From Branchiostoma floridae (lineage: Eukaryota; Chordata; Leptocardii; Amphioxiformes; Branchiostomatidae), in the NCBI RefSeq assembly GCF_000003815.2, contig NC_049996.1, positions 14,802,996 through 14,866,995 on the forward strand: 64,000 nt of DNA. Direction: 5' to 3'. Position 1 is the first letter of the stretch. Every line of letters begins with the position of its first letter. Under the pieces are notes generated by a model, which was not told the origin of the DNA, made no database searches, and was given only the letters and a program-made list of their open reading frames with translations. Positions 41,275 through 62,488 of the stretch are shown here, piece by piece. The position numbers were made by a program, and so were the translations under genes.

Positions 41275-43119
41275 TTACTGCCCATTCCCCATGTGCCCAT
41301 CCCTCTCTACCTCCGATTTCCTCTCAGTTTCAAGCTTAGAGATCCTCTTGGTCATCTTGGCCATTTGCAGGTGTATGTCACCTAAGGTCTGTAGCAAGAT
41401 GTCCATCTTTTCATCCATGGACAAAATATCCTCGTTCTTGAGCCTTGCCGGTTTGCGGTGCTTTTTGTGATGGCTTCTGTCTGTTGTGTGACTCGCAGAC
41501 GACACCACTGACTCTGTTTTGGTGGAGCCATTTTGAAGAGCGGCTAGCTGGAATGGCAAGGTCTCGTTTCGTCCTTGTGGCATGGCGCTGTCCTCTTGCC
41601 CCGATGCTTGTGTTTCCAAGTCGCCGCGTTCTTTCACCGAACCTAGCACTAGCGTTGACACACTGCTTGCCGTTTCTTCCGCAAAACTTTGCAGCGACCC
41701 ATCTACTGAAGACTTACGCGAGCCCGTGTAAAGACTTTGCCTTGGCGGCATGGCGTATTTGTCATTTTTTGTCGATTTTTGCTTCTCTGGCTCTTCGGTC
41801 ACAGATGTCAGTGTCGATACGTCGCTAGCCGTGTCCCCAACAGCATTTTCCACGGACCAATCTGTCGAGGGCTTTCTTGAGCCTGTAGAAAAGTTAGCGC
41901 TGTCGTCTGTCGAAGGGGTCGCAGTTTTCTTTCCAAACGAAACTCTGCCTTCAAATTCCTCTCTGGTTTCACCAAGTTCTGGTCTTGCCACGGTCCAGAC
42001 GCTAATTTGGGATGGGCTCTTGGCTTCGGTGGTTTCCTGGCTTCGTTTCGTAGTTTCTTGGCTTAGTTTCGGGATTTCTTCGCTTCTTGGTGGTGTCTTC
42101 TCACTTTGGGGCGCTGATTCTGCTGTAGAGTTGTCAAATGTTTCTTCCTCGTATTCTGTGTCTTCTGGGAGCTCGCCGCATTCAAGGTACACCGCTACGG
42201 TCTTCTTGTAGGCGTGGCGTGCCATGTCGAGCGGCGTAAGCCCCGTTCTCGCCGCCTTTGCTTCTACGTCTGCGCCCGCCTCTACCAGCTTCCTCACCGT
42301 GAGTAGTAGACCGTTCTGTGCCGCAAGATGTAGCGGAGTCAACCCGAACTTCCTCGCTTTAAGGTCTGCTCCTTTTTGTGCCAACATTTCTACGATGCAG
42401 GCGATTTCTTCGTCGCGACCGCCAGACTCGATCGCGGAGTGCATGGGGGTTCCTCCGTCATTTTGTAGCGGGCTTACCTGCATACCAGTCCGTACAGATA
42501 CCTGACCGATCGGGCTTAAGAGGATCTTACAGATGGGGACGTCCACGTTCGCTGCCGCAATGTGTAGAGGGGTGTTCCCTTTCTGATCAGCAAGGTAGAG
42601 TTTTACTCCTGCTTGGAGTAGCAGGACCGCAATGTCCTCTCTCGCACCTGTTGCGTCTTTCGCGACGGTGGGGTTGAGGCTGTGCCAGTCTTCTGCGGGT
42701 GACATCGGTTCTACAACATAATGAAGTGCCGTTCTACCCTCTCCATTCGTGGCGTCGGGGTCGGCTTGGCAGGTCTGTAATAGTTTACGCACAAGCTCAA
42801 TTTTGCGCCTCTTAACGGCGTAAATTAAGGGCGTTACGTGGCCAGTTTCGTGCTCAATCCTCCAACTGTCCGGGGCTTCCTCGTCTACCAAGTAGGCGCT
42901 GGCGTTCACATCTGCTCCGACGGTTACCAAAGCACTGACCACCTCAGGTGAACTGGTTTTACAGGCCCAGAGTAGGTAGGTGGTAGCGACGTTCTCACAA
43001 TAGTCGTCGGTTGTAGGGCTGTATAGCGTGTTCAGGTCGATGTCTTCGTTTGTACACAGAACGCGTTGCACTCTCTGGAGGTCGTTGCTCGCAATAGCAT
43101 CCCAAAGCTCCTCTGCCAT
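41275..43119 (-). CDS. Ankyrin-repeat protein 1 (614 aa) with coiled-coil C-terminus
   Basis: This is a single-exon ORF. Residues 4-18 (ELWDAIASNDLQRVQ) match the start shared by the cluster. About seven ankyrin repeats span residues 45-315, with TPLIYAV, TALHYVV, TPLHIAA, TPMHSAI, TPLHLAA and TPLDMA signatures. Residues 316-550 are Ser/Thr/Glu-rich and probably disordered. They contain an internal duplication (STGSRKPSTDWS...TASDVSTL at 411-437 and YTGSRKSSVDGS...TASSVSTL at 464-490). A basic HHKKHRKPARLK stretch (550-561) could be a nuclear localisation signal, followed by a heptad-rich segment (568-605) likely to form a coiled coil. Ankyrin repeats bind proteins; the partner is unknown. 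It lacks the acidic tail and the upstream leader motif of the other members, so it is the most diverged paralogue. Confidence 0.9.
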   Translation of the reverse strand: MAEELWDAIASNDLQRVQRVLCTNEDIDLNTLYSPTTDDYCENVATTYLLWACKTSSPEVVSALVTVGADVNASAYLVDEEAPDSWRIEHETGHVTPLIYAVKRRKIELVRKLLQTCQADPDATNGEGRTALHYVVEPMSPAEDWHSLNPTVAKDATGAREDIAVLLLQAGVKLYLADQKGNTPLHIAAANVDVPICKILLSPIGQVSVRTGMQVSPLQNDGGTPMHSAIESGGRDEEIACIVEMLAQKGADLKARKFGLTPLHLAAQNGLLLTVRKLVEAGADVEAKAARTGLTPLDMARHAYKKTVAVYLECGELPEDTEYEEETFDNSTAESAPQSEKTPPRSEEIPKLSQETTKRSQETTEAKSPSQISVWTVARPELGETREEFEGRVSFGKKTATPSTDDSANFSTGSRKPSTDWSVENAVGDTASDVSTLTSVTEEPEKQKSTKNDKYAMPPRQSLYTGSRKSSVDGSLQSFAEETASSVSTLVLGSVKERGDLETQASGQEDSAMPQGRNETLPFQLAALQNGSTKTESVVSSASHTTDRSHHKKHRKPARLKNEDILSMDEKMDILLQTLGDIHLQMAKMTKRISKLETERKSEVERDGHMGNGQ

Positions 43120-45755
43120 TTTAGCTTAATTAGACGATATTGTCCTAAGTCCTTGTTCTTTCACTGCCGGCTTGTTTGGAATCGACAAGTAGAATGGCTA
43201 CTAGAAAGACAGGCTAATCGTATGCGAAGTCTTCGGAATTTAAGACGCCACACAAGAGGAAGATGCTCCTATCCTATGCCAACGTATTTTAGGAATAGTT
43301 GTTCTTCTCAATGTCTGGGTGTGGTGCAAGTTATGGTGGATGGATTTGCATTATGAAATTGTGGCAGGCCTTTTATCATAATAAGATATGAATTTTTAAT
43401 GATGACGCAATGATTATCTATTGCATTTTGTATCGTCATTGTCCCAAGGGGGAAATTCATGTAACATTAGACGCATCAATGAATGAATATAAATTGTGAA
43501 ATTCTGATACACTAGATGCGAGTTGCTGTTTTTTATTTTTTATTATTCCCATAGAAATACCAGTTTATGTTTATCAAGCGACATGATAGTATAACCTATA
43601 AGATTCAAAATAGAATTGGATTCAGCATTTTGAGAACCAACAAACGAATTTCTTTTTCATCTGACGGGAAATATTTGAAGAGGTACAAGAAAACAGAAAC
43701 AGTGATACCTACGAACTCTGCCATGGGAGAGAGTCCGAGAGACTTTTGACATCTACCGATCGGTCAATGACCTCTTTGGTCACGTGATTTAAAGTTTCAT
43801 TAGTCTCCACAGCAGACGTTTTGGTGGAACTTTCATTTCGTAACGTTATTGTGCGCATTGTTCCTTGTTGTTACCATTTTCTGATGGAACTTCTTTGAAT
43901 TAAAATGGTAATAAGTGATTCAGGGCACGATAAATAACATTTGAAATGGGATGATTATCTAAGAAAGATATAAATTATGGTAACCACAAGAGTCTGGATT
44001 GTAGGCTACCACTTTGCGGGAATTTCAAGATGGCGGACTTCGATGAAGGTTTGTGTTTTTCCGCACATTCTTTCCACAATAACTTGACTCTGAAGTACTA
44101 ACTATCGCAGCCAAACAACCGCACAGTAAAGTAAGGTACTTCTGGGCATTTTGAGTGGGTGAATTGGTGTATTCTAGCCCAACTAGCGGTGTGAGACGTG
44201 CCCAAGGTACAGAATCTGTATGCGGCTGCCAAGCAAAATTGTTTTCGGGTAATCGAGTACTAGTAACTGAGTACCCGACAACATTTTGTCGACGGCCTGC
44301 TAGGTTGGCCACGTCTCATATTCGTAAGTTGCAAGAAATTAGTTCTTTGATGTTATGAACAGAACAGAGCGCGGTTCATTATTCGTTTGTTTTGGAGTCA
44401 TTATTATGATTAATAATGATAGATATTAATATACATTCTTGGATTTGGACATCATTTTCCTCCATAGAAGTTCTTTATTCACAGAAATCCAAATTTCGCC
44501 CACGGGTATACATGCTCATGTATCATCAGCTAAGTAACAAAATACTAACAAAAAGTAACATAGTCCACCTGGTAGTTTTGTCTGACTATCTGTCATCAAT
44601 TTGGTCAAACATTAAACATTATGTACATACTTTTATGTACAACCGTTAAGTTTGTAACAATGTTCAGCATTTACGTATATCCTGCTATATAACGTTATGT
44701 GCATAATATCTATTGCCCTAGATTTTTCTGCTAATTCATGAGGAGCCCACTATTTATGCCCTGGGAAAACACAGACTCCTTCGAGGCGCGCAAGGCCTAA
44801 TTTACCGATCCCCAGCACACGCCCAACACCCGCCGTCCAACACCCGTCGGCCCCACAAACCAGCTGGCCTCAACTATCGCTTTACCTCTCACAGAAGCGA
44901 GCGATAGTTGGGGCCAGCGCAAGTGGGGCCAGCTGGTAGTGGGGCAGGTGCATTATATAAGTTGCAGGAGGGCGCGCATTAGGCAGGGGATCGGTAACTC
45001 TTCTTTGCAAAGCTTCTTCGAGCTGGTTTCCCAGGGTAACTATTTATAACTTTACCTCTGGCACATATATTTCTAAAGTACTACATTTTACCTGTTGAAA
45101 ATAATGCTTAAAGCTTTAGGTGCCAACAAACTTGCTATAATGTATGACACTGCAAAATTATGTATAAACACTAATTCACACCATTGCTATGTATTGACTC
45201 ACACTGTCCTAAACTTAAAACACAAACTTTCATTCTTGACCAGTCTAAGATACATATACATGTCATAACACAAAATACTTGTCCTTGAAGTTGGTTCTTA
45301 AAATCTTTGAGCACAATTAACACTCCATGTGTGCAATCTAAAGAAGTAAAGGCAGTGGCCTAATCTACACAACATACACATACATGTACAGTACGTACAT
45401 ATCTTACACCATCTTAGAAGTTTGTAGGCCTGTCTCCAGTATTAGATTTGTTTCTGTCCCACTTCTGTTTGGGATTCCACAGTATAAAAATCAAAAATAC
45501 ATTTTCTTCAATTCTATGTCATCAACTTGATGATGAAGTTTAGATTTTTGGACTGATAGGGTAAAATATTTGTCTCTCCCAACAAGCAGATTTCCATCCT
45601 GGGATGGAGGGACGGGTCTTGGAGACAGCCCTGGTTAGCAAACTATGGAATTGCTACTTCTTTGCATATAACCTTCATCCCATGTATATTCAGATTGCCA
45701 TACATTGTACCTGCTATGTATACAATTGTCACGCAATAAAGTTCTGTTCTGTTAT
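43120..45755. other. Interval between ankyrin genes 1 and 2
   Basis: The first few hundred bases should hold the 5' flank of ankyrin gene 1. A palindromic element occupies 44745-45055. The rest is AT-rich without a supported exon. A frame at 44025-44312 is uninterrupted for 95 codons but has no recognisable protein and no splice or homology support. Confidence 0.5.
44745..45055. mobile_element. Palindromic MITE-like element
   Basis: Outer arms CTATTTATGCCCTGGGAAAA and TTTCCCAGGGTAACTATTTA are inverted. The next arms are TTACCGATCCCC and GGGGATCGGTAA. Inside, CTGGCCTCAACTATCGCT pairs with AGCGATAGTTGGGGCCAG. The nested symmetry and length of about 310 bp fit a non-autonomous DNA transposon, possibly one inserted into another. 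A TATATAA box lies at about 44955. Confidence 0.8.
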
Positions 45756-45759
45756 CAGC

Positions 45760-46110
45760 AGGCTTTTAGTAAGGCATGCGTCAACGCGTCATCTGGATGC
45801 ACTTTTCTTAGAATAACAAGAAATTTGATGCCCCTGGACGCCTTACAATGGGGAGAAATTCTTCTGATAAGCATGAAATTCTGATTGACCAGGGATGCTA
45901 CCAGGTCATCTGTGGCCACAGTCTTCTACTGTGACCTCTGCAACAGTATTTTTGCCTCTTGGGATACCTAAGAATGCATTTTTTAGACTTAAAATCATCA
46001 AAAACTCTGCACCATGGAAGGTGGATGCCCCCAGCTACACCCCCCTACAATAGTCACTTACCGCAACTCACCAATATGTTTGGACTCCCTATTATAAAAT
46101 CCTAGCTAAA
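45760..46110 (+). repeat. Copy 2 of a long dispersed repeat (partner at 12412-12750)
   Basis: It ends about 25 bases from the stop codon of ankyrin gene 2, so it probably lies in that gene's 3' UTR (antisense as drawn). It shares ordered blocks with 12412-12750 at high similarity, and carries an extra TGAAATTCTGATTGACC insertion. Confidence 0.8.
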
Positions 46111-46135
46111 AGCCTGGTTATCAGTGATTTTTGTT

Positions 46136-47302
46136 TCAGTCCTCCTCATCAGAGCTGTCTCCTTCCTCAATGACTAACACCTGCTGAAACCCTCCCACTG
46201 CTCCTTCTACCATCTCTTCCACAGGTGTGTCTGTCTGCTGGGATGCTGCACTGTCTTCTGTTTCTGCTTGCTCTGCGCTTGGTGCTTCACGTTTGGGTCT
46301 TCCTCCTTTCTTGCCTCCCTGAAGGTTCCTGATGGCTTGAAGCTGCTTCCTTCTTTCCAACTCTTCTTTTCTTGCGATCAAGTAGTCAACAACGTCTTGC
46401 TTCTTTGTGTTTACAGCCATGTCCAGGGGAGTTAGACCAGTTACAGGGGCCTCTGGATGGATGTCTGCCCCCGCTGTTACGAGCACTTTCACCACATTTA
46501 GAAGGCCAGCTTCTGCAGCTAGATGTAAGGGGGTAAGACCATGTTTTTGGCTGTTCAATTTCGCTCCATTGTCGATAAGCAATTTCACAACTGCGATGAC
46601 ATCTCGAATATGAGCCAGGTAATCTTTTGTTTGACACACAACGTGAAGTGGTGTACACCCCTCACGGTTAGTGATGTCCACTGTTGCACCATTCTGCAGA
46701 AGTACGCGTGTCGAGACCGGATCATTTGCCATAGCAGCATAGTGAAGTGGGGTGTTAGCCTTTCTGTCATACACATTGACTTCTGCTCCTGCCTTTAACA
46801 ACAGGTCAGTGATTTCTTGTTTCCTCTGAGCTCTAGCAGGTGCAGGTAAGTTATCATCTACCGTATTGGTAGAAATACAGTGCAAAGGTGCCAAGCCAGT
46901 GGCATTCGTAGCATTGACATCAGCATTACAGTCCTGTACAAGTTTCCTGACTATGTCCACTTTTCTGTCTACAACTCCAAGTATCAAAGGGGTTACTGTT
47001 TCTATACCTTCTACAAGTTCTAATGCCCGCCTAAGGGAATACCTTATCTTTGTACCTTCACCAATAGAACGAAATCTTACCCTTGCATTAACATCTGCAC
47101 CTGCTTTTACAAGGGCACCTGCAACTACAGGATATCCCTCATAACAAGCATGTAGTAAAGGATTGTAGTCTCTGCCATAGTTCAGGTCAACATTGGCAGT
47201 ATAGAGGATCTCTTGTATTTTCTGTAAATTGTTGTTGGAAATAGCTTCCCTCAGATCCCGCAACTGTTGCTGCTTGTACTGACAACTTGAACTTCTGAAC
47301 AT
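46136..47302 (-). CDS. Ankyrin-repeat protein 2 (388 aa) with acidic SIM-like tail
   Basis: Single-exon ORF. An N-terminal helix-like LRDLREAISNNNLQKIQEIL precedes about seven ankyrin repeats (about 45-315) with NPLLHAC, TPLILGV, APLHCIS, TPLHYAA, TPLHVVC, TPLHLAA and TPLDMAV. A charged helix (EELERRKQLQAIRNLQ) and a basic KKGGRPKRE stretch, a possible nuclear signal, follow. The end is GAVGGFQQVLVIEEGDSSDE-ED. This tail is shared with proteins 4 and 5. The VLVI core followed by acidic residues and serines resembles a phospho-dependent SUMO-interacting motif. Transcription is probably driven from the shared leader block near 47620. Function is unknown; a role as a protein adaptor is inferred. 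Confidence 0.9.
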   Translation of the reverse strand: MFRSSSCQYKQQQLRDLREAISNNNLQKIQEILYTANVDLNYGRDYNPLLHACYEGYPVVAGALVKAGADVNARVRFRSIGEGTKIRYSLRRALELVEGIETVTPLILGVVDRKVDIVRKLVQDCNADVNATNATGLAPLHCISTNTVDDNLPAPARAQRKQEITDLLLKAGAEVNVYDRKANTPLHYAAMANDPVSTRVLLQNGATVDITNREGCTPLHVVCQTKDYLAHIRDVIAVVKLLIDNGAKLNSQKHGLTPLHLAAEAGLLNVVKVLVTAGADIHPEAPVTGLTPLDMAVNTKKQDVVDYLIARKEELERRKQLQAIRNLQGGKKGGRPKREAPSAEQAETEDSAASQQTDTPVEEMVEGAVGGFQQVLVIEEGDSSDEED

Positions 47303-47620
47303 TGTCGAGTTTGCTCATTCCAAACTGAATTTACAGATATTTACAGTAGAAACCTAAATTCAATTACCCGATACACAGCAAGATGTATCCCAGTCAAATA
47401 ACGTCTCTTCCCCTCGTTCAAACAGCTGATACATCACTGGCAGAAATGCCTTCCTTTGGGTCTGTTTTCTCTCAATATTCAGAAAGCTGCTAATAGTACC
47501 CACTGTCATCGGATGTTCCCAAGTCTGTTTAGATGACTTCTGCACAAGTTTCGTAAATTTTTGTCCTTCTTGGTTGGTTCTCCGAGTATCAACAGGTCTC
47601 AGCAACTTGACTCAAACACA

Positions 47621-47725
47621 GTTTCACAAGGAAATGGCAGCAAAGAAGTTTGTGAAAGCAGTTTTGGTAGGCATGGCAATCAATTGGTCCAGTTTCTATG
47701 AGGAGGGTGTCAAGGGGAATTGTGG
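47621..47725 (-). promoter_or_regulatory. Shared leader/promoter block upstream of ankyrin gene 2
   Basis: On the minus strand GCCATTTCCTTGTGAAAC is present (47621-47638 region), 320 bases before the ATG. GGGGAAT within AAGGGGAATTG lies about 85 bases further upstream (47711-47721). The same pair occurs upstream of genes 3, 4 and 6 and near gene 5. Confidence 0.6.
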
Positions 47726-48127
47726 CTTCCTTTCTTATACATTTTTTATCTAAATGTATGGGATAAAAACAGAATTTAAAAAAAAAATTAACTGTATTAA
47801 CTAAATGTATCTTTCAATTTGTTAAGGAACCTTTAAAGAAGACATTATCGTATATGAAAGAGACAGCTTCTTACAAAGTGTGATTCCAGAAACCCCATGT
47901 ATAGCCTTGTGTTTCACCTATAGTGTTAGTGCAGGTGCATGGCCATCACTCGAAAATGTCTGCCATTGACAAATGTGTTTGAATAGTGAGTCACTGTCAG
48001 GACCATGACGTTAGTTGAATAGCTGTACCCTACAGTTGGACAGGTACAGCCACTACTGGCTTACTGTAAATACAATAGGACAATAGGAGAGGATGGGGGA
48101 TTTTGTTTTGTTTTTAAGTTGTGGTAC

Positions 48128-48129
48128 AT

Positions 48130-48175
<46 letters not shown>

Positions 48176-48311
48176 ACACACACATACACACACATACGCA
48201 CACACACATACATACACGCACATACACACACACACACACAAACACATACACACAAACGTATACACACCCCCACATACACACAAACGCATACGCACACACA
48301 CATACATACAC
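48128..48311 (+). repeat. (CA)n microsatellite abutting an assembly gap
   Basis: CACACA with ATAC and ACGC interruptions runs into 100 N at 48312-48411. The array probably caused the gap and its true length is unknown. Confidence 0.97.
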
Positions 48312-48411
48312 NNNNNNNNNNNNNNNNNNNNNNNNNNNNNNNNNNNNNNNNNNNNNNNNNNNNNNNNNNNNNNNNNNNNNNNNNNNNNNNNNNNNNNNNN
48401 NNNNNNNNNNN
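48312..48411. other. Assembly gap (100 N)
   Basis: Exactly 100 N placed directly after the CA repeat. No gene is interrupted as far as can be seen. Confidence 1.
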
Positions 48412-48977
48412 TTCTACCCATTGCACCGAATCACAATTAGCATATGAAACAAGTAATTTAATAATTGCTAAGTAATTAGATTCTTAATGGGAGTTACATT
48501 GAACTATTATTATTTCATTTTATAACCTCATGTGCATACCAAGGGTTAACCAAATTTTATAATTATGTAGTAAGTTAAGCTTACAACAATTTGACAACTA
48601 ATAACAGTTGTCTATGTCACTGAAGTCTAACAAACTTGGGATATTATACTACAAGTAAACTGCAAACCACACAAATCTTACATTTTGTACCCTATAACTA
48701 AACAATTAATTTTATACAAGCATAATATAATTTTGCTAAAATTAACTACATGTTTTATACAGTCAAGCATATATACCATGCATATGTGTATAACGTTACA
48801 TGTATTTTAACACTTAATCTTACATGTATGTTGTCTTATTGTCGTAAATCATAATTCCAATTTTATGAAGATTTTCTATCTTTCTGTTGTCGAAGTACAT
48901 ATCACAATATACAAGTAGTACAATACAGACCTCCTATTTGGCCTTTTTGCCTCTACTTGCATTTTGACAATATTAAT

Positions 48978-49035
48978 AGAAGAAGCTTTATTGACACGAC
49001 AAAAGTACAGATACTTTTGTATGGTCAACTATAAA
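48978..49035 (-). mobile_element. Retroelement 3'-tail-like sequence
   Basis: TTTATTGACACGACAAAAGT-ACAG is the reverse complement of the sequence at 38835-38858. A diverged form (TTTATTGACACAAAAAAGTACAG) is at 17235-17258. Three copies ending at the same AATAAAG suggest truncated 3' ends of one LINE-like family. Confidence 0.5.
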
Positions 49036-49317
49036 CTACAACAAACAAAAAGTGAAAGAATACAGAATATATCTTAAAATTCTACTAATGAAACAGTATA
49101 GGATAATAAGATTCTACTAATTAAACAATATATTAGGATAATAGGGAAAAACCTCTGTACAATCAGGTGGGGCTAAATGTGTCACTATCTTTTCTAATCA
49201 CAAAGCAATCTTTTATGTATTTACCTATCTTAGGATTATGAGGATTGTCGGATCTAAAGATATAGTCAAACGTATACTTCTGTTATAATATCTAGAATCT
49301 TGAAATCTAATAGGGAT

Positions 49318-49364
49318 ACCCAGCTTCTGCTGCAAGGTGTAGACGGGCTAAACCTGCTTTAGGC
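49318..49364 (-). pseudogene. Orphan ankyrin-repeat fragment 3' of gene 3
   Basis: On the minus strand this reads GLARLHLAAEAGYP. It corresponds to the GLTPLHLAAEAG repeat of proteins 2, 3 and 4. It lies about 40 bases after the stop codon of gene 3 and is not part of that ORF. It is a relic of another copy or of a local duplication. Confidence 0.75.
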
Positions 49365-49405
49365 ATGGATCATAAGACAGAAAATACAATCATGTTTGTT
49401 CTGCT

Positions 49406-50659
49406 CTAGCTATACATCATGTTATGTGTGACTGTCTGCTGTGAGCCTTCATTGTCCTCTGCTTGCTCCACACTTGGTGAATCCCTTTTGGGTCCTCCTT
49501 CCTTTTCTTTCTTCGCAGCTTGAAGCTTGGCCTCATGTTCTGCTGCTTTTGCAACCAAGTAGTCAACAATGTCCTGCTGTCCTGTATGTTCGGCCATGTC
49601 TACTGGTGTCAGACCAGTCCTGGGAGCCTCCACATGAATGTCTGCCCCTGCTTCTACGAGCATTTTGACAATGGCCGGAGGGCCGGCTTCTGCTGCCAGG
49701 TGTAGAAGGGTTAAACCCATGTTGGTTTGGCAGGTTACTTCTGCGCCATTGTCAATTAACAGTCTTACAACTGCCATCTTCTCTTGAGGATCTGCCTTCG
49801 CTGCAATTGCACGTTGTAATGGGGTAGCATTGTCATGAATGTAATTGAATCCTTTAGTTTTCTTGTTGACAAGTGCCTGGCCACCTTCTTGTTGTATAAG
49901 GAGCCTACAAAGCTGACCGTCAGCTACACTTGCAGCAATGTGAAGTGGAGTAGACCTCTTGTTGTCTGCAATATCAAGTCGTGCACCATTTCCCAGAAGT
50001 ATTTGTGCTGTGACTGCATCCTTTGCTGTAGCAGCTTTATGAAGAGGTGTTTGCCCCTTTTTGTCACATGCATTAACCTCTGCTCCTGCAGCCAGCAGTA
50101 GGTTTGCGATCTCTTGTTTCACCTGGTCATGATTGTGATTAACTGTCACAGTGGTTGACTGCAATCTCAATGCAGCTGTCAGATTATGTCGCTGTTGTTT
50201 AGCCTTAAGTGACTCTTGATCAAATCTGTTTGTTGAAATGCAGTGCAAAGGTGCTGTACCATCCTCATTCTTTGCATTGACATTGGCACCACAGACATGC
50301 AGAAGCTTCTTGACCAATTTCAAGTTCCTCGTTGCAACTGCAACTATCAGAGGGGTCACTGTTTCCATGGAGCTTATATCCTGGTATAGTTCAGAACCCA
50401 TTCTGTTATAATCGAATTTGTCCAAATTCTTAACCCATACATTAACATCAGCACCTGCTTTAACTAGTGCACCAACAACTACTGGGGAACCCTTAACACA
50501 GGCATGTATCAAAGGATAGTAGCGACTATTTCTGTCGCTACTATATGTAGATCTAGCATGTGTACTCTCTAGTACATAATATTCTGACAACCCTTGCCGG
50601 TATAATAAGAACTGTATTTTCTTCAGGTCATTCTGAGAGATAGCATCCTTTAGCGACAT
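49406..50659 (-). CDS. Ankyrin-repeat protein 3 (417 aa), conserved tail lost
   Basis: Single-exon ORF beginning MSLKDAISQNDLKKIQFLLY. Ankyrin signatures run in order: YPLIHAC, TPLIVAV, APLHCIS, TPLHKAA, TPLHIAA, TPLQRAI, LLHLAAE and TPVDMAE. The region is followed by a charged helix and KKEKEGGPKRDSPS. The protein then ends in SQQTVTHNMMYS instead of the GAVGGF...LVIE tail of its relatives. An acceptor-like TTTCTTACAG at 50801-50810 (minus strand) suggests a 5' UTR intron, with the leader exon near 51130. An orphan ankyrin fragment follows downstream. It is probably functional as an ankyrin adaptor without the SIM-like tail. Confidence 0.88.
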   Translation of the reverse strand: MSLKDAISQNDLKKIQFLLYRQGLSEYYVLESTHARSTYSSDRNSRYYPLIHACVKGSPVVVGALVKAGADVNVWVKNLDKFDYNRMGSELYQDISSMETVTPLIVAVATRNLKLVKKLLHVCGANVNAKNEDGTAPLHCISTNRFDQESLKAKQQRHNLTAALRLQSTTVTVNHNHDQVKQEIANLLLAAGAEVNACDKKGQTPLHKAATAKDAVTAQILLGNGARLDIADNKRSTPLHIAASVADGQLCRLLIQQEGGQALVNKKTKGFNYIHDNATPLQRAIAAKADPQEKMAVVRLLIDNGAEVTCQTNMGLTLLHLAAEAGPPAIVKMLVEAGADIHVEAPRTGLTPVDMAEHTGQQDIVDYLVAKAAEHEAKLQAAKKEKEGGPKRDSPSVEQAEDNEGSQQTVTHNMMYS

Positions 50660-51126
50660 AATTGGGAAAGTTTTGATAAAATCATAAATTGAGTCAAATC
50701 ACGTTTAGTAATAAATTTTCAAAACTCAGATACCTACTGAGCCCTTTCACTGTCCAAGAGAGACAGTCTCCGTCTTTTTCCTTATTTGCTGGCTTCTTCA
50801 CCTGTAAGAAAGAATTGTTTTACACCTGGATATTTTGTAGTTCTGATCTTCCAAGGTCTTGTCTGATAAGTTCTTGGGAATTGAATGTCTTAATTTCTTG
50901 GCTCTTAGTAGTGTCCCAATCAAACACAAGAGACAAGTAGTACAGTCTCCAAGCTCCCAGGATTCAGGTCCGGGCTGCCAGCTCACGAGTAAATGCAGTC
51001 ACCCACTTAAGGCTAAGAGGTTGGAATCCTTTAACCTGGAATCCTTTAGACTGGTCAGTTGATAGTGCATGAAACTCTCTGTTACACCAAGACTGGTCCT
51101 ACATGTAGCAGCTGCTGCACTCCCAG

Positions 51127-51253
51127 GTTTCACAAGGAAATGGCTTACAAAGGTGTAATGATTATTACCTTGCTGCTATTAATATGCATGATGCAATGCT
51201 GTAGATGATTGGCTGTGGCAGGTTCGTTGAAGAGGCTGCCAAGGGGAATGTCA
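51127..51253 (-). promoter_or_regulatory. Shared leader/promoter block upstream of ankyrin gene 3
   Basis: GCCATTTCCTTGTGAAACC (minus strand) at 51127-51145, with AAGGGGAATG at 51241-51250. The block and about 500 bases beyond it align with 62489-63070. Confidence 0.6.
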
Positions 51254-51900
51254 GTGTTAAATGCTTGTCACTCATACAGAAACAGGTCATGATTGCCATG
51301 TATACAGAAATCAATGTTACACTATATGTATTGCAGTGTGTTTTAATTTGTAGGGTGAAGAAAAAGTCGTCAATGAGATTTCTGACAGGTTACTGATGTA
51401 TGGAAAACCACAAGAGTAGCCTTGTTTTTCAGTTCAGTGAGAGGTTGGACTTTAGGCTGACGTCACCACTGTTGACACACGGTGAAATTTAAAGATAACG
51501 TCAGCAGGATGTTAAATAAGCAGAGGCAAAGTACTTGTACTTTGGTCTCTAGCCTTTTCCCTGCTGACTTCTGCTGTGGACGTTATGATTAAAACAATGG
51601 GCCCATAATTTTTAGGAGACACTGTAACAGGGCTCGAAATACCTTTTTCTGCATACCAGCACTGGTGCAGGTAACACTGAAAATTACCTGCATCAGACAA
51701 ATTTTAAATGCGCCACCCTGAATTTAGGATGTATGGATCATACTAAAATTGTTCAGGAACCATTGCTATTTTTTCTTTAAATTTATACTTTATTCTTCTC
51801 TAAAATGTCTAGTACTTTAACTTATAATGATTTTTAAAACTTTTCAAAAAAATTTATTACAATGCTACATCTTTGATTGAAAGTTTGAATGATATTGTTT

Positions 51901-53153
51901 TCAGTCCTCCTCAGTACTGTCTCCATCCTTGATGACTAGCGCCTCCTGAAACCCTCCCACAGCTCCCAGAACCTCTTCAACAGGTACAGGTGTGTCTGTC
52001 TGCTGGGATACTGCCTTGTCTTCTGTTTGAGCTTGCTCTGCGCTTGGTGATTCACGTTTGGGTCTTCCTTCTTCCTTGGCTGTTTTAAGATTCCTGGTGG
52101 CTTGAAGTTGCTTCCTCCTTTCCAGATCTATAGCTACTTTCCTTGCAACAAGGTAATCTGCAATGTCTTGGTTTTTTGTATGAATTGCCAGGTCAACTGG
52201 AGTTAGACAAGTAAAAGGGGCCTCTGCACAAATATCTGCCCCTGCCTCTACCAGCATTTTGACTATGTCGAGAAAACCAGCTTCTGCGGCAAGGTGTAGA
52301 GGGGTTAATCCAATAAGGCATGCTTTTGGCTGGTCAAGTCTGCATCGTTTTCAGTTAGCATTCTTACGACTGCAATCCAAACTTCAGCAGCAGCCACATA
52401 ATACCGAGTGTCTGCTTTTGCTGTAATTGCAACATGCAGAGGAGTGGTGTCATCATGTGTTTTCTGATTGACAAGCGCCCGGGTGCCTTCTTGTTGCATC
52501 AGAAGCTTAAGGAGCTCGCAATCAGCCTGTTCTGCTGCTATGTGAAGTACAGTGAATCCCCATTTGTCCACAAGGTCTACTCTTGCCCTGTTCTGAAGAA
52601 GTTTTCTTGAGTATTGTAGATCCTCGCTTACAGCAGCACGGTGAAGTGGGGTTTCACCATTTTTGTTATGCACATTAACTTCTACTCCTGCTTTCAACAA
52701 TAGGTCAGCAATTTTCTTTTGACTCTCAACTATAGCAGAGCATTTTCTTTCTTTGGCATTTGTAGGAACATGGTGCAAAGGAGCCGTGCCATCCTCATTT
52801 GTTGCATTAACATCAGCACCACAGTCTTGTACAAGTTTCTTGACTAGTTTGAAGTTTCTGTCCACAACTGCAAGGATCAATGGGGTCACTGTTTTCATGC
52901 ATTCTATTGCATTCCATAGTCTAGCACTTGCATGAGACTTGTATGGACTATAGTTGCTGATATCTGCCTTAACATTTACATCTGATCCTGCTTTAGCAAG
53001 GGCGCCAACAATCACAGGGGAGCCCTTAATACATGCATGTATTAAAGGATTGTAGCTGCAATAGTCGTTCAACTTTACATCAGTGGTACAAAAGATCTTT
53101 TGTAATTTCACTACATCATTAAAAGAAATAGCATTTCTCAGCTCTTGTGACAT
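51901..53153 (-). pseudogene. Ankyrin-repeat gene 4, split by an 8-bp insertion
   Basis: The upstream part (53153-52305) starts MSQELRNAISFNDVVKLQKI and carries YNPLIHAC, TPLILAV, APLHHVP, TPLHRAA, TVLHIAA and TPLHVAI repeats. It then stops after SQKHALLD. The downstream part (to 51901) continues in another frame with TPLHLAAEAGFLDIVKMLVE, TPVDLAI, the charged helix and the end GGFQEALVIKDGDSTEED. At the junction, GCCTTATT (minus strand; 52312-52319) is inserted relative to the CAT-GGA-TTA-ACC expected from gene 2 (KHGLTPLH). Everything else is intact, so the break is recent, allelic or a sequence error. If the break is real, the product lacks the last two repeats and the tail. Confidence 0.85.
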
Positions 53154-53507
53154 AGTTGCAAACTTCTAAGATAATAGACTAAGTACAGTAATTGAATTCT
53201 TTCTTTACAGTTAAACTCTACAACTAGTCCCCTAACAATCACTTCATAAACTCAAGAACACAGAGGCCTATTACTAGTCAAGTCCAGTCTCTTACAAGTC
53301 CCCTTATGCCAGCTTGACTTTCTTGAATGGTCGTGGAAATTTGTTATTTGGTCGAAGAGTGCATCAATAGACTTGAGACGCCACCTGCACAGTTCTGACT
53401 TGAGACACCACCTGCACAGTTCCTTAGACAACTTCTTGACAGTTGCTTTCCGTCCCTTTTGACTCCGAGTGTCTTAAAAGGTCCCAGCCACAATTTTCAG
53501 TCCCCCA

Positions 53508-53590
53508 CTTTCACAAGGAAATGGCTGAAACCATGTACGTGTACATGACGTCATGTCTGGCAGGTGGGTGTTGAGGGGAATTTTCACCTT
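53508..53590 (-). promoter_or_regulatory. Shared leader/promoter block upstream of ankyrin gene 4, with a CRE
   Basis: AGCCATTTCCTTGTGAAAG (minus strand) at 53508-53525. A perfect TGACGTCA lies at 53547-53554 and GGGGAATTTTC at 53576-53586. The equivalent position of the copy near 57485 has TGACATCA. Confidence 0.6.
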
Positions 53591-54408
53591 CTTGCTCATT
53601 TATAAGCATTCAGATAATTGATACAATAATGTAAGATGTAACAATAAAATGTACAGTATTAACAATATCTCTCCGTTTGTATGTTGAGTGAAAATGCAAA
53701 TTTTTGCTACTCTTCACTGTTAAAGCTGACATTGAAACCGCATGTATACCCTTGTTTTTCACTTTAAACTTTGGGGAGGTGGTTGGACAGGTTAGACAGG
53801 TGTTACTGTTTGCTCAGGGTGGAGGATGGAGGTTTGTGTAAATGCACTTGTTTCTATTGTCAGCAATTGCAAGTATACCAGTCCTGTACATGGAGATTGG
53901 CATTATGTAAAAGTTTGAAATCTAAATTCATTGTTTGTATTGACAGAGGGTCAAAAATCTTCAATTTGAACATTGTTGTTGTGCTATTTTTTTCATGCAG
54001 TTGTTTTAAATGATATTATTGTGTCAGTCATTTTTCTCTAATTTTTACCAGTCAGAAAAGTATTTGAATGATTCTTATTCTCACATTCAAGAGAATGCAT
54101 TTTAGATTTAGGCAAGATTAATTATTCTAAGAATTGCTTGTGTCACTTTTTTCCTGTTGTGACTCATAACACTAATCTTCTAGCTTGTTCTAGTTTACAG
54201 TTTTTTAATGCTCCTGCGCCTTGATACTAACTAATATTAATGAAGCTAAGAGTTAACTTGACTGTATTATATACAGTATCTGATTAATTTCTTGTGGCAT
54301 GCATTTGACATGTCTCCCCTCCACAGGGTACTTTCTTTCTTAACGTATTCAAAACCTCCATCTGCTCTTTCTTGATTAAGAATTTCTTCCGCTTATGTGT
54401 CTAACTTC

Positions 54409-55512
54409 TCACAGTGACTCATCAGAATCTTCCTCTTCCTCTTGTTCAATGACCAACACTTGTTCAAATCCTCCTACTGCTCCTTCTTCAAGAAGTTCAA
54501 TCCATTCCACAGGTGTGTCTGACTTCTGTGACTCTTCCAATTCTACTTCTTGCTCGACACTTGCTTCTTCTCGTTTGTTCCTTTCTCTTTGGCTTTTTTC
54601 TTGTGTTGTTAGGTAGTCGATGATGTCTTGGTTCCTTCCATGTTCAGCCATGTCCAGAGGAGTGAGACCAGTGTTTGGAGTCTCAGCATGGATGTCAGCT
54701 CCTGCTTCTACCAGGAGTTTGACAATGTTCAACAAGCCGCCATTGACTGCCAGGTGTAAAGGGGTGAGGTGGTCTTTTTTAGCCTCCAAGTCGGCACCTT
54801 TTTCGATGAGTAACTTAACAAGAGTTTCATCAAGTTTCTCAAACATGCATGAACGAGTACCGGCTAGATGGTGGAGGGGAGTCATTCCTTCACTATTTTG
54901 GATGTCAGGTTTTGCTCCATGCTGAAGTAAGAGCTGAACTGTTGCGACATCCTTTCCCATGGCAGCGATGTGGAGAGCTGTCCGACCCTTTTTGTCCTGC
55001 AAGTCCACTGCTGCTCCAGCTGCCAGGAGTGTGTGGGCAATCTCTTCTTGCTCTTCAGCTGCTACTTTGAACAGCTCACCTCCATACTTCTCAGCTAGAG
55101 TTTTATGAGAATTCTTCACTACATAGTGCAGTGGAGCTAACCCTCCATTGTTAGTTGCATTGACATCAGCCCCACAACGATGAAGCAGCTTTTTAACAAG
55201 GTCAAGTTTCCTCAGCATCACAGCAAGTATCAAGGCAGTTGCACTGTACTCATAATACTCTCCCTTATAGAGACTACATGCATTAATATTTGCACCTGCT
55301 TTGACCAGAGCACAGGCAACTACAGGAGAACCAGAGAAACAAGCTTGTTGTAGGAAAGTTCCTTGTACTGTGCAGCTTTGATAGCTGTTTTTTTGCTTAA
55401 CATATGAAATTAGCCTGTTCAGGTTAATGTCTCCAGTAGAGAGTATTTGGTGGATTTCCTTGAGATTGTTACGTGATATGGCATCCCACAATTTGTCAGA
55501 TGCCATTTTCAA
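54409..55512 (-). CDS. Ankyrin-repeat protein 5 (367 aa) with acidic SIM-like tail
   Basis: Single-exon ORF starting MKMASDKLWDAISRNNLKEI, which is nearly the same as protein 6. Repeats include LILAVML, APLHYVV, TALHIAA, TPLHHLA, TPLHLAV and TPLDMAE. A charged segment with RERNKREEASVEQE follows, then GAVGGFEQVLVIEQEEEEDS-DESL. The hydrophobic core followed by acidic residues and Ser again fits a SUMO-interacting motif. Coding and 3' flanking sequence align with gene 6, so the two are a recent tandem pair; gene 6 has extra internal repeats. A 5' UTR acceptor (TTTTACAG) at 55724-55731 points to an upstream leader exon, and the 17-bp minisatellite then lies in the 5' intron. Confidence 0.9.
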   Translation of the reverse strand: MKMASDKLWDAISRNNLKEIHQILSTGDINLNRLISYVKQKNSYQSCTVQGTFLQQACFSGSPVVACALVKAGANINACSLYKGEYYEYSATALILAVMLRKLDLVKKLLHRCGADVNATNNGGLAPLHYVVKNSHKTLAEKYGGELFKVAAEEQEEIAHTLLAAGAAVDLQDKKGRTALHIAAMGKDVATVQLLLQHGAKPDIQNSEGMTPLHHLAGTRSCMFEKLDETLVKLLIEKGADLEAKKDHLTPLHLAVNGGLLNIVKLLVEAGADIHAETPNTGLTPLDMAEHGRNQDIIDYLTTQEKSQRERNKREEASVEQEVELEESQKSDTPVEWIELLEEGAVGGFEQVLVIEQEEEEDSDESL

Positions 55513-55722
55513 GGATGATTTTAGTTTAAATCCTACTTAATTAGCTAACTTAAAGTCTGAGATTAAGTTAAATGTGACACAATTTCAATCCTAACATGTA
55601 CATGTATTACTATAAATCATGACCTTAAAGTTTGTGTTTTTGCCACTCGTGGAGTTGCAGCTCTCTTGGTCTCCTCTTGATTCTTTATCCAGATATCAAA
55701 TTTTTGTATGAAGTCGTTCCAC

Positions 55723-55740
55723 CTGTAAAAGTCAAATTGA
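55723..55740 (-). other. Candidate 3' splice site of a 5' UTR intron, ankyrin gene 5
   Basis: Minus strand reads AATTTGACTTTTACAG before GTGGAAC. Gene 6 has the aligned but weakened GGACTTTTGCAAG near 60546, and gene 3 has TTCTTTCTTACAG near 50803. This supports a non-coding first exon followed by one large coding exon. Confidence 0.5.
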
Positions 55741-55982
55741 GGCTTAGTATCAAAATATGTAAAGTTTGAGATTGCCCATTCCTCAATGCCGAGACATCCA
55801 ATGGCGCGAGCAATCCGCCTCTCGTCTGATTGGCTGACAGCTGGTTTGTGGTGACGCCCATGGGAATTGATGGTGACGGTTGAGATAGCAGAGTACTGAC
55901 AAGATGCGGTTTGCTGGCGCTGTTGGAGGTCTCTGCATAGGAAATGGATGTGCTTATTCTAAAGTGGCTTTAATTGTGACTG

Positions 55983-56815
55983 GCGGTGGTTCCTTGTGAC
56001 AGGTGGTTCCCTGTGACAGGTGGTTCCCTGTGACAGCTGGTTCCCTGTGACAGGCGGTTCCCTGTGACAGGTGGTTCCCTAGCTGTGACAGGTGGTTCCG
56101 TGTGACAGGTGGTTCCTGCGACAGGTGGTTGCCTGCAACAGGCGGTTCCCTGTGACAGGCGGTCCCTGCAACAGGTGGTTCCTTGTGACAGGTGGTTCCC
56201 TGTGACAGGTGGTTCCCTGTTACAGGTGGTTCCCTGTGACAGGCGGTTCCCTGCAACAGGCGGTTCCCTGTGACAGTAGGTTCCCTGCAACAGGTGGTTC
56301 CCTGTGACAGGTGGTTCCCTGTGACTGGTGGTGGTTCCCTGTGACAGGTGGTTCCCTGTGACAGGTGATTCCCTGTGGCAGGTGGTTCCCTGTGACAGGT
56401 GGTTGCCAGTGACAGGTGGTTCCCTGTTACAGGTGTTTCCCTATGACAGGTAGTTCCCTGTGACAGGTGGTTCCCTGTGACAGGTGGTTCCCAGTGACAG
56501 GTGGTTGCCTGCGACAGCTGGTTCCCTGTGACAGGTGGTTCCCCGTGACAGGTGGTCCCCTGTGACAGGTGGTTGCCCGTGACAGGTGGTTCCCTGTGAC
56601 AGGTGGTTCCCTGTGACAGGTGGTTCCCAGTGGCAGGTGGTTGCCTGTGACAGGTGGTTCCCTGTGACAGGTGATTCCCTGTGACAGGTGGTTGCCTGTG
56701 ACAGGTGGTTCCCTGTGACAGGTGGTTCCCTGTGACAGGTGGTTCCCTGTGACAGGTGGTTCCCTGTGACAGGTGGTTGCCTGTGACAGGTGGTTCCCTG
56801 TGACAGGTGGTTGCC
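55983..56815 (+). repeat. 17-bp minisatellite, about 49 units
   Basis: The unit GTGACAGGTGGTTCCCT is repeated with point changes over about 830 bases. Because 17 is not a multiple of 3 and the unit lacks stop codons on the minus strand, all three minus frames can stay open as a 17-residue repeat; these are not genes. Each unit carries CAGGTG, an E-box of the ZEB/Snail type. It lies upstream of ankyrin gene 5, between its coding exon and the leader block near 57046. Confidence 0.97.
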
Positions 56816-57040
56816 TGAGTTATTTTTATAATATATGCTATATCTTATAGACCAAGAGTAACTGTTACAGTACAATGTACTCTATTGTAAAAGAAGTATA
56901 TAGTGATGTATTGAAGTATAAGTGTAACAGTAATATAACTTTTCAATACCTTCAGCAGTTGGATGTTGGATAGGCTCCCCCACTGTAGACTCTGGGTGTC
57001 TGGTGTGTTAAGATGTCCCAGTTACCTTCTCACATGCCCA

Positions 57041-57060
57041 GTTTCACAAGGAATTGGCTA
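57041..57060 (-). promoter_or_regulatory. Leader motif upstream of ankyrin gene 5
   Basis: AGCCAATTCCTTGTGAAAC on the minus strand, one base different from the cluster consensus. It is the nearest copy to gene 5, though the minisatellite separates them. The GGGGAAT partner is not obvious here. Confidence 0.5.
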
Positions 57061-57139
57061 CTAGTAGTAGCTGTAACACAAAGGTGTGTATTCTATTACT
57101 TCCTGAGACTAGTAAAAGATGACTATTTTGATTGCAAAC

Positions 57140-57830
57140 TGCTTTCCTTTACAGTAACTACTATTTACTAGTCTTAACAGTCAATTCAAATTCAGAAACT
57201 CAAGTACACAATGACTCAGATTACTGCATACTTACTAGTTAAATACAGCCTCTTATACAAGTCTATCCTTGTGTCGTCCTGACTCTCTTGAATGTCTAAG
57301 AAAACCTGATGTTTTCTTGCAGTCGTTCCAGCATCCGCGCAGTTCTGGTGATCCAATGTGTCTCTTCAGATAACTTCTCGAGAGTGGCTTTTCATCCCGT
57401 CTTGACTCCAAGTGTCTTAGAAGGTCCCAGTAACTTTTTCAGTCCTCAGTTTCACAAGGAAATGGATGCCAACCTTAGTTTCATGACATCATGTCAGGTA
57501 GTTTCTATGTACATGACGTGGGTGTCAAAGGGAATTTCAGACTTCCTTTTACCCATTTATAAACGTTATTGATGATTCCCATTGATACTTTAATGTTAGA
57601 CATAACTCTATATACAATTTACATGTATTGAAGAATATTTCTCCATTTGCATGTTGAGAAAAAAGGCAAATTTTTGCTACTGTCCACTCTTAAAGCTGAT
57701 GTTGACACCACATGTACAACCTTGTTTTTCACCTTTGCCTTTGGGGTTAGCAGTTGGACAGGTGTGTACTGTTTGCTGAGGATCACGTGGAGTTGTTTTG
57801 TGATGCAAAGCGTAACGTTCTCCATACTGA
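57140..57830 (-). promoter_or_regulatory. Orphan ankyrin-gene 5' flank without its gene
   Basis: This block aligns with the 5' flank of gene 4 (53170-53800). Shared parts are an AAACTCAAG-ACACA segment, CTTTTTCAGTCC, TTTCACAAGGAAATGG at 57451-57466, a CATGACATCATGTCA element, AAGGGAATTTC at 57528-57538 and TTGCTACT-TCCACT. No ankyrin ORF follows it before gene 5's own leader. It is either an alternative promoter of gene 5 or the remains of a deleted paralogue. Confidence 0.65.
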
Positions 57831-57931
57831 TGCTGTCAGTAACGTAAACATTGCTGCATTCCTGTACTTACTGAATTGCTGGGAGGGGCCCTCTAACGTA
57901 CAAGTAGATAATTACATTTCTTTTTATCATA

Positions 57932-58327
57932 TCAGGCTACACCAAATTTATTTGTTGCTTCTCAGATTCGCCTGTCAATTTTTTTCCATTTTTAAAAAAA
58001 ATCAAGTCCCAAGAAAAAATAATACAGGTATTGCTATCACAAACCTGTAAATATTGCCATTCAGAGCCACATACACATAATCTCAGTGAAAAATTCAGAA
58101 CTGCAGTTAACAATGTTGAATCAAAGGAAGGAATGATTGCATAAAACATGCCATTAAGATATGAAAACTTTAATAACCCTGTTGTTTTGTGTTTATTTAA
58201 GCCATATATCTTCACAATTACACCTTTTGAAAAAATTCATTTTCTTTTGATTTTTGACCGGTCTGTCCAATTTTTTTTCTGAAATTGAAAAAATTCAAGA
58301 AGCAACAAATGAATTTGGTGTGGCCTA
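57932..58327. mobile_element. MITE-like element with AGGCTACACCAAATTTATTT ends
   Basis: AGGCTACACCAAATTTATTT-GTTGCTTCT at 57933 is inverted as AGAAGCAACAAATGAATTTG-GTGTGGCCT at 58297-58325. Inner pairs include TGTCAATTTTTTT against a TTGAAAAAATTC-type arm. About 395 bp lying between genes 5 and 6; no ORF. Confidence 0.8.
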
Positions 58328-58845
58328 AAGGTACTATTGTACAAAAATTTTGGAATACTGTTAGTTCATTTTTTGTAATGACATACTGGGTTGAAAGTCT
58401 TCAGTTTGAATATTCTAAGTACTTGTAGTACCATTTTTGTATGCAAATTATTTTTGATTTTTTTAAATTTTCCCTCTAGTTTTTCTAGTTTCTCTACTTT
58501 CACATTCAAAAGAGTGTATTGTAGGCAATATTGAATATTCTAAAAATTAATTACTTGTATCACTCATGAATTTTTCCTGACTCATAGTCATAACACCAAT
58601 CTTCCATCTCATCCTAGTTTACAATCATAATGCTCCTGTGCCTTGATACTTATTAAACATTAGTGAAGCTTATTATTATAAGTTAACTCTGTCTTATCAT
58701 TATAAACATTTAGACCTGATTGATTTCTTTAGGCCTGTCTTAATTTGACAACACTCCTCCACACCGTTTCTTATTTCCTCATTGATGACAAATGTATTTA
58801 AAACCTCCCACTGCTCTTTCTTTATTTAGAATTTCTTCTGATTTC

Positions 58846-58909
58846 TCACAGTGACTGGTCAGAATCTTCCTCTGAATAAATCATCTTGCCGAACACTTGG
58901 TTCTTCTCG
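58846..58909 (-). pseudogene. Relic of the acidic tail of ankyrin gene 6
   Basis: Directly after the gene 6 stop, the frame continues REEPSVRQ, matching REEASVEQ of protein 5. Then, after a deletion and in another frame, SEEDSDQSL and a stop match the EEEEDSDESL end of protein 5. The GAVGGF...VLVI core is missing. The tail was therefore lost by a stop codon (AAG-TAA where gene 5 has AAC-AAA) plus a deletion. Confidence 0.85.
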
Positions 58910-60271
58910 TTACTTCTTTTTTCCATGGCTTTCTAGCCTTGCTGTCAGGTAGTCAATGATGTCTTTGTGCCCTCCATGTTCAGCCATGTCCAGGGGAGTC
59001 AGACCAGTGTTCGGGGTTTCTGCATGGATGTCTGCTCCTGCTTCTACCAGGAGTTTGACAATGTTCAACAGATTGCCGTCTACTGCCAGGTGTAGAGGGG
59101 TGAGATGGTCCTTTTTAACCTCCAAGTTTGCACCTTTTTCGATGAGCAGTTTAACAATTGTTGCAGTTTCATCAACCATCCAAAGTGAAGTATATTTACA
59201 CTGTTCTATCACAGCATGTAGGGGAGTTGTACCATCATTTGCTGCATGATTCACAACAGCTGCATTATTTGAACCAATCTGCTGTATCAGCAGCTTGAAC
59301 ATCTCGGCAAAATGTGCATTGATAGCCACGTGAAGGGGAGTTAAGCCCTCGTGAGTTGGAATGTCAACTTTTGCATGGGACTGGAGTAGTATTTTGGCTG
59401 TGGTGACATTCCTTGCCTCAGCAGCAAAATGAAGAGGTGTCATTCCTCTACTATTTTGGATGTTGGATTTTGCTCCATGCTGAAGTAAGAGCTGAACTGT
59501 TGCGTGAGCATTTTTCTCAACAGCTAAGTGAAGAGGAGTCATTTTCTCCCTATTCTGGATGTTGGTTGTTGCCCCATGCTGAAGTAAGCACTGAACTGTT
59601 GCTTCATTCCGTACCTCTAATGCATTGTGAAGAGGAGTCATGCCGTTCCCATCTTGAATGTCAGCTCTTGCACCATTCTGGAGTAAGATGTCAACTGTGA
59701 CACTGCCCTTTCTAGATTCCATGGCAGCAAAGTGGAGCGGGGTTTGACCATCTTTATTCTTCAAGTCCACTGTTGCTCCAGCTGTTAACAGCAAGTTGGC
59801 GATCTTCTTGTCAATGACTGGATGAGGAGCCCCGTGCTGAAAAGTACGTCCATACTTTTCTAGGGGGCCAGCCTGCTGCCCTACTGAAAATATTATCTCT
59901 GTGATAAAGTGCAGTGGAGCTAACCCCTCGTCATTGGTTACATTGACATCAGCACCACATTGGTGGAGCAGTTTTTCCACAAGGTCCACTTTCCTCTGTA
60001 TGACAGCAAGGATCAAGGCAGTTACGCTGAACTCATAATAGTGTCCCTTATAGATACTACATGCATTGACATTTGCACCTGCTTTGACCAGAGCACAGAC
60101 AACTACAGGAGAACCAGAGACACAGGCTTGTTGTAGGAAAGTTCCTTTTGTTTGGGATCGTCCATGATATGGCTTGTTCAGGTCTATGTCTCCAGTGGAG
60201 AGTATTTGGTGGATTTCCTTGAGATTGTTATGTGTTATGGCATTCCATAATTTGTCAGATGCCATTTTCAA
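58910..60271 (-). CDS. Ankyrin-repeat protein 6 (453 aa), expanded repeats, tail lost
   Basis: Single-exon ORF starting MKMASDKLWNAITHNNLKEI. It has about ten to eleven ankyrin repeats. Relative to protein 5, roughly three extra units are inserted (TPLHNAL, TPLHLAV, TPLHFAA and TPLHVAI repeats at about residues 205-330), rich in LLQHGA..NIQN. The unit-to-unit likeness suggests recent internal amplification. It ends RLESHGKKK, with the acidic SIM-like tail of protein 5 surviving only as a broken relic downstream. The leader block at 62489 is about 2.2 kb upstream, so a long 5' UTR intron or a nearer unrecognised promoter is needed. It is probably an intracellular protein adaptor; partner unknown. 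Confidence 0.9.
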   Translation of the reverse strand: MKMASDKLWNAITHNNLKEIHQILSTGDIDLNKPYHGRSQTKGTFLQQACVSGSPVVVCALVKAGANVNACSIYKGHYYEFSVTALILAVIQRKVDLVEKLLHQCGADVNVTNDEGLAPLHFITEIIFSVGQQAGPLEKYGRTFQHGAPHPVIDKKIANLLLTAGATVDLKNKDGQTPLHFAAMESRKGSVTVDILLQNGARADIQDGNGMTPLHNALEVRNEATVQCLLQHGATTNIQNREKMTPLHLAVEKNAHATVQLLLQHGAKSNIQNSRGMTPLHFAAEARNVTTAKILLQSHAKVDIPTHEGLTPLHVAINAHFAEMFKLLIQQIGSNNAAVVNHAANDGTTPLHAVIEQCKYTSLWMVDETATIVKLLIEKGANLEVKKDHLTPLHLAVDGNLLNIVKLLVEAGADIHAETPNTGLTPLDMAEHGGHKDIIDYLTARLESHGKKK

Positions 60272-62480: not shown

Positions 62481-62488
62481 TGCTCCCA

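Follow-up and report, generated by a model that had tools for sequence, protein, structure and literature searches.

A stretch of 64,000 nucleotides from the lancelet Branchiostoma floridae (C18:14802996-14866995, hereafter the window) holds six members of a tandem, single-locus ankyrin-repeat family that numbers at least nine genes and arose by local duplication. Judging from sequence comparison, and with moderate confidence, we regard this family as a lineage-restricted branch of ankyrin adaptor genes that is devoid of a CARD and that shares its N-terminal module with open reading frames (ORFs) of the same genome combining ankyrin repeats with a CARD (ANK-CARD ORFs).

Organization of the ankyrin gene cluster

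An earlier note on this DNA had recognised six paralogous ankyrin ORFs on the minus strand, all of which were recovered. Ankyrin families of Pfam were matched by six out of six window ORFs (best E per protein of 5.8e-30 to 2.4e-58), each presenting several repeats above the Pfam cut-off and thus qualifying as an ankyrin-repeat protein. BLASTP matches were obtained in 15 of 15 pairs of O1-O6, with identities of 31-52% and a weakest E of ~2e-29. The count of six proved too low, as a search of the genome (513,431,437 bases in 431 contigs) with O5, in which the best 112 of 273 first-look candidates were scored, revealed at least nine genes in 41 kb, at least three of them past the window edge. The members, with positions on the window scale unless a contig is given, are as follows.

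41275..43119, minus strand: O1, ankyrin ORF of 614 amino acids (aa); ORF scan, Pfam and trees
46136..47302, minus strand: O2, ankyrin ORF of 388 aa with an intact acidic tail; ORF scan and Pfam
49406..50659, minus strand: O3, ankyrin ORF of 417 aa, whose tail starts, then stops early and differs; ORF scan, Pfam and alignment
51904..53153, minus strand: O4, frameshifted ankyrin gene; ORF 52305-53153 (282 aa) plus the remaining frame with the tail, 51904-52311
54409..55506, minus strand: O5, ankyrin ORF of 365 aa with an intact tail; ORF scan, Pfam and AlphaFold2 model
58910..60265, minus strand: O6, ankyrin ORF of 451 aa with amplified 99-bp repeats and a lost tail; ORF scan and blastn
C18:14877251-14878516, outside the window: O7, 421 aa, open, tail present; genome search with O5
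C18:14880347-14881765, outside the window: O8, 472 aa, open, tail present; genome search with O5
C18:14884492-14885376, outside the window: O9, 294 aa, without the tail; genome search with O5

The states that the earlier note had assigned to the members were largely right: O2 and O5 retain the tail, O3 differs in it, O4 is frameshifted, and O6 is amplified and has lost its tail. The coiled coil attributed to O1 is visible by eye only, as coil-like heptads at the end of a long Ser-rich tail. O1 is among the most diverged members, its last 301 aa gave no Pfam match at E<=0.1, and a CARD was not found in it. The reading frame is open, tail included, in O2, O5, O7 and O8. Genome searches and blastn also bore out the proposal of a single tandem family whose members have been gained, lost and rearranged, and the locus presents clustered paralogues, both intact and disabled, the pattern of tandem birth and death.

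Within the reach of these searches the family is restricted to one place in the genome. None of the 35 matches listed outside the locus (E<=1e-10) covered more than half of O5 at 40% identity or above, and the longest of those listed, at C5:21148378, displayed 36% identity. A run of N lies outside the window between O6 and O7, so that further copies there would escape detection, and 100 N occupy 48312-48411 inside the cluster.

The O5 structure predicted by AlphaFold2 from a six-sequence alignment (mean predicted local distance difference test score, pLDDT, of 80.6; predicted template modelling score, pTM, of 0.74) displays a helix-pair solenoid with ~8 pairs by our own count, strand-containing loops at residues 33-49 and 78-89, and a long terminal helix at 293-326. 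The pLDDT falls below 50 at 134-145 and at 327-365, the latter corresponding to the tail, predicted to be disordered. Since the modelled solenoid opens with a helix pair at residues 2-22, the LWDAI..NDL signature, which is shared within the cluster as the earlier note described, constitutes the first, capping ankyrin repeat; it is not private to the cluster, being also carried by three dispersed ANK-CARD ORFs. Generic ankyrins (ankyrin-1/2 and the designed DARPins in the PDB) resemble the cluster in repeat consensus and predicted fold, but the best-scoring stretches listed for O5 fall mostly in its consensus repeats, residues ~140-310, and the match does not stem from cap and tail.

A short acidic tail, DTPVE...GAVGGFxQVLVI, is encoded by five of the nine genes, namely O2, O4 (out of frame), O5, O7 and O8. 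The two intact window copies are:

46139..46300, minus strand: O2 tail (DTPVE...GAVGGFQQVLVI, plus acidic residues)
54412..54576, minus strand: O5 tail, with genome matches at E<=1 limited to O2, O4, O5, O7 and O8

The five tails have 16 invariant columns, DTP and GAVGGF among them. The O5 tail matched nothing elsewhere in the genome at E<=1, and the best PDB hit of the tail (E 0.4) was an unrelated acylase.

Proposed relationship to the ANK-CARD reading frames

Three loci of the same genome combine ankyrin repeats with a CARD:

C5:21148204-21149700: ANK - coil-like linker - CARD ORF of 499 aa (CARD Pfam E 6.8e-16)
C205:4698-6533: ANK - coil-like - CARD ORF of 612 aa (CARD Pfam E 7.1e-12)
C3, near 12092200: ORF with ankyrin and coil-like parts, the CARD lying in another frame (E 9e-16)

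The C5 ORF is the best match outside the cluster and, like C205, a single ORF. A profile of 324 columns built from six of the nine cluster genes was compared with 71 ORFs, drawn from loci fetched by the ankyrin and homology searches. C5 is the sole outside ORF whose best stretch spans nearly the whole of this profile (columns 5-312 of 324, 116.6 bits); the others cover parts of it, mostly columns ~157-319. A second profile, restricted to the N-terminal 139 columns, yielded 21 outside ORFs among its top 30 matches; in three of these 21 the best stretch starts at column 5 and lies close to the N terminus of the ORF, and these three are the ANK-CARD ORFs (37.2, 28.2 and 25.3 bits). A genome search from C5, in which the best 86 of 273 candidates were scored, returned C205 first, followed by O1, O2, O5 and O9, before any other ankyrin ORF. 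The N-terminal module found in the three ANK-CARD ORFs thus gives the cluster identifiable relatives. The earlier note knew of no described family with this architecture, a statement that holds for the cluster and its tail, which matched none in the searches, but not for the N-terminal module. No described family of such kind appeared in the literature surveyed, which consisted of titles and abstract openings and included few subscription journals. The cluster is a new local, lineage-restricted gene family, new in detail and of a known type.

The likeness to the ANK-CARD ORFs comprises the common N-terminal cap repeat and, in C5, collinearity over almost the entire ankyrin part, with an identity of 28-33% to the nine cluster genes (BLASTP best matches). 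The differences lie at the other end: the CARD is theirs, whereas the genes of the cluster have either another tail or no tail at all. Among the latter a coil-like end was seen, by eye, in O1 only. A further locus, on C4, encodes a coil-like part and a CARD without ankyrin.

The principal alternative is that these are ordinary scaffold genes encoding ankyrin repeats only and not particularly related to CARD genes, the N-terminal cap being convergent or general to ankyrin arrays. Several results weigh on that side or, more broadly, against the reading preferred here. Ankyrin repeats converge easily and their caps are degenerate. Many generic ankyrin ORFs outscore the best stretches of C205 (59.0 bits) and C3 (40.9 bits) over the full profile, and when C205 is the query the cluster comes out intermingled with generic ankyrins, some of which score at or above it. 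Even from C5, one generic ORF precedes O8, O3 and O7, the end of O4 comes later, and O6 is not among the matches listed. Trees do not place the attachment of C5, C205 and C3, which sit on branches of 2.6-5 changes per column with six of nine inner forks open, and C3 carries its CARD in a different frame. No CARD was found in the six window proteins, domains above the Pfam curated cut-offs (E<=0.001) being of ankyrin type only; nor did the six-frame translation of the surrounding 124 kb match a four-sequence CARD profile (E<=1, stretches of at least 25 aa), a search by which a hidden CARD exon near the cluster was rejected. The positions that face the partner in designed ankyrins do not evolve significantly faster overall; one of five non-independent pairs was nominally significant (p 0.034). 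Readings of the tail as a SUMO-interacting motif (SIM) or LC3-interacting region (LIR) were rejected, as the patterns proved unspecific: shuffled tails match the SIM-like one in 5-42% and the LIR-like one in 13-41% of cases, and the real tails lack the former in two of five and the latter in one of five. Against the scaffold alternative, the ANK-CARD trio alone, of the outside ORFs listed, match the N-terminal profile from its start, and C5 alone spans nearly the whole profile; we consider it possible but rather doubtful.

Under the preferred reading, that of a CARD-less branch of ankyrin adaptors, local duplication produced the tandem cluster, most of whose members were kept by purifying selection, with probable exchange of sequence by conversion and the disabling or trimming of some copies. 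The products would be intracellular adaptors, in which the solenoid (in O5, ~8 helix pairs, the first a cap, with long inserted loops) may bind a partner protein, and the disordered acidic tail, where present, could offer a short linear docking motif, the GAVGGF block, to a second partner. Since a CARD terminates the nearest relatives but not the cluster proteins, the likeliest role of the latter would be to bind ANK-CARD-type partners without entering CARD assemblies. As the weakest step of the scheme, they might act as modulators or competitors in cell-death or innate-immune signalling.

Caiap is an ankyrin adaptor tied to CARD signalling, and an interaction of its ANK part with active Caspa has been reported; those who described it did not succeed in detecting it in amphioxus. 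Caiap possesses an N-terminal CARD, 16 ANK repeats and two exons, whereas no CARD was found in the cluster and the repeats number ~8 helix pairs, as counted on the O5 model alone. The comparison is an analogy of working, not of membership. In lancelets, according to PMC2575513 and PMC3196919, innate-immune and cell-death genes are expanded and reshuffled. A bolder version would have the CARD-less set, lancelet-specific and derived from or sister to the ANK-CARD adaptors, form a diversified arm of CARD signalling that works by decoy or modulation, in which a new tail motif replaces the CARD and O9 swaps its last ankyrin repeats through a tandemly duplicated exon-like piece (F1, below), specificity varying by gene and by splicing; this we regard as speculative and improbable. 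If the CARD-less branch is real, it would illustrate, in compact form, how adaptors shed their signalling domain as selection accompanies the diversification of their recognition part. The conserved tail of five genes at the same locus provides a direct handle on the partners.

Gene structure, selection and age

Uninterrupted ORFs were observed in eight of the nine genes, the exception being O4. The members had been described as intronless, which goes beyond what the single-ORF structure establishes, and a piece beside O9 suggests splicing in at least one member:

C18:14884122-14884382 (81127-81387 on the window scale): F1, start-less copy of the terminal ankyrin repeats of O9

F1 lacks an ATG, begins with an acceptor-like TTTGCAG and runs for 87 codons to the same stop as O9. 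It belongs to a tandem unit of ~373 bp with two further degenerate copies, F2 and F3. Differences between F1 and O9 at codon positions 1, 2 and 3 amount to 5, 3 and 24 (each of 88), compared with 19 of 103 in the flank, giving a ratio of nonsynonymous to synonymous substitution (w) of 0.06. If constraint acted on O9 alone, a total of no more than eight changes over the first two codon positions would be expected with p 0.015 at the flank rate and 7e-5 at the third-position rate. F2 is frame-broken (12, 12 and 21 differences to O9), and F3 is partial and non-periodic (7, 10 and 11). This codon-position constraint makes F1 look like a spliced terminal exon and suggests that O9 is a spliced gene.

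F1 also bears on the origin of the single-ORF structure, which a retrocopied or horizontally acquired founder would account for. The eight uninterrupted genes, and the single ORFs of the C5 and C205 relatives, agree with such a founder; however, F1 suggests splicing, and one bacterial and one viral scan returned only generic ankyrin arrays of 26-39% identity (best 80 of 145 bacterial loci; 3 viral). A horizontal origin was set aside on these scans, and a founder of either kind appears unlikely.

Selection was estimated by the method of Nei and Gojobori (NG86) on codon alignments of the 36 pairs among the nine genes, low-identity windows having been dropped, a step that lowers w. Synonymous divergence (dS) was saturated in 14 of the 36 pairs; the remaining 22 displayed w of 0.14-0.42 at dS of 0.45-2.6, several near saturation. 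Unfiltered values were 0.41 for O5/O6 (bootstrap 0.30-0.57) and 0.47 for O7/O8 (bootstrap 0.37-0.61). The O4 frame past the frameshift presents w of 0.27 relative to O2, which marks the O4 lesion as young, allelic or a matter of assembly. Most cluster genes are thus maintained by purifying selection, the downstream frame of O4 included. That the cluster is decaying, a set of relics of a once-functional family with few or none now expressed, is very unlikely: the O4 frameshift, the O6 tail loss, the broken pieces (F2, F3 and one near 49318) and a flank copy without a recognised gene are set against w below 0.5 in 22 of 22 measurable pairs (upper bootstrap limits 0.57 and 0.61 in the two closest) and an ankyrin array open in eight of nine ORFs despite whole-gene dS of at least 0.45.

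The smallest whole-gene dS among all pairs is 0.45, the closest pairs lying at about 0.5, so that the duplicates are old. The earlier description of a cluster in active birth and death was therefore overstated as regards birth, since no whole-gene pair falls below this value; the disablements of O4 and O6, the duplicated fragments and a tract of likely conversion do stand, and recent change consists of these small events. The tract lies near the tail in O5/O7, where 25 codons for identical residues at aa 307-341 display zero synonymous differences where the mean is 0.38 (p 0.0005 by permutation), and is likely to reflect gene conversion. Weaker synonymous unevenness was observed in O5/O6 (p 0.022), O6/O8 (0.039) and O7/O8 (0.057), and no sign of it in O2/O3 (p 0.93) or O2/O4 (p 0.67); after correction for six tests O5/O7 alone passes. 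Trees group O7 with O8 firmly and O5 with O6 less so (98/96 in one tree, 88/71 in another), with O1 and O9 on long branches.

Disabled members, duplicated flanks and neighbouring features

O4 carries a net 8-base insertion, unlike a homopolymer error, which places its tail out of frame with its start; the other frame runs on from 52311 to 51904 and is 69% identical to the end of O2. O6 has an in-frame stop, with 111 bp of the O5 tail region opposite 10 bp of O6 in blastn blocks, a gap not cleanly placed by global alignment. The remaining pieces are:

59416..59641, minus strand: 99-bp ankyrin-repeat tandem amplification within O6
48920..49330, minus strand, ends approximate: broken, interrupted ankyrin relic downstream of O3, seen by eye in translations
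53426..53818: O5 downstream flank, copied at 57368-57781 (74% identity)
57368..57781: O6 downstream flank, copy of 53426-53818 (74% identity)
51087..51626: O4 downstream flank, second copy at 62448-63064 (three pieces, one inverted, 73-82%)
62448..63064: duplicate of the flank at 51087-51626, with no ankyrin match adjoining it in the window

The orphan coding piece that had been noted near 49318 corresponds to the relic above, which is visible by eye but escaped tblastn at E<=1e-3. The flank pieces, in turn, are real duplicates (57368-57781 at 74%; 62448-63064 at 73-82%). The 51087-51626/62448-63064 pair was found by genome search in just these two places, leaving a transposon interpretation of the 62448 copy unsupported. 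AATAAA or ATTAAA occurs within 400 nt past the stop in four of the nine genes and at 37% of random places, and poly(A) signals are thus uninformative. A 296-aa ORF at 55954-56844 was rejected as a gene, being the spurious product of a minisatellite at 55985-56817 with a 17-bp unit in ~49 copies. Just downstream of O2, 45753-46103 matches 12405-12731, 33 kb away (354 columns, 76% identity), and is perhaps a dispersed repeat. To the left of the window, at C18:14798798-14800891, two adjacent ORFs of 358 and 339 aa resemble, by eye, the polymerase of a non-LTR (long terminal repeat) retrotransposon.

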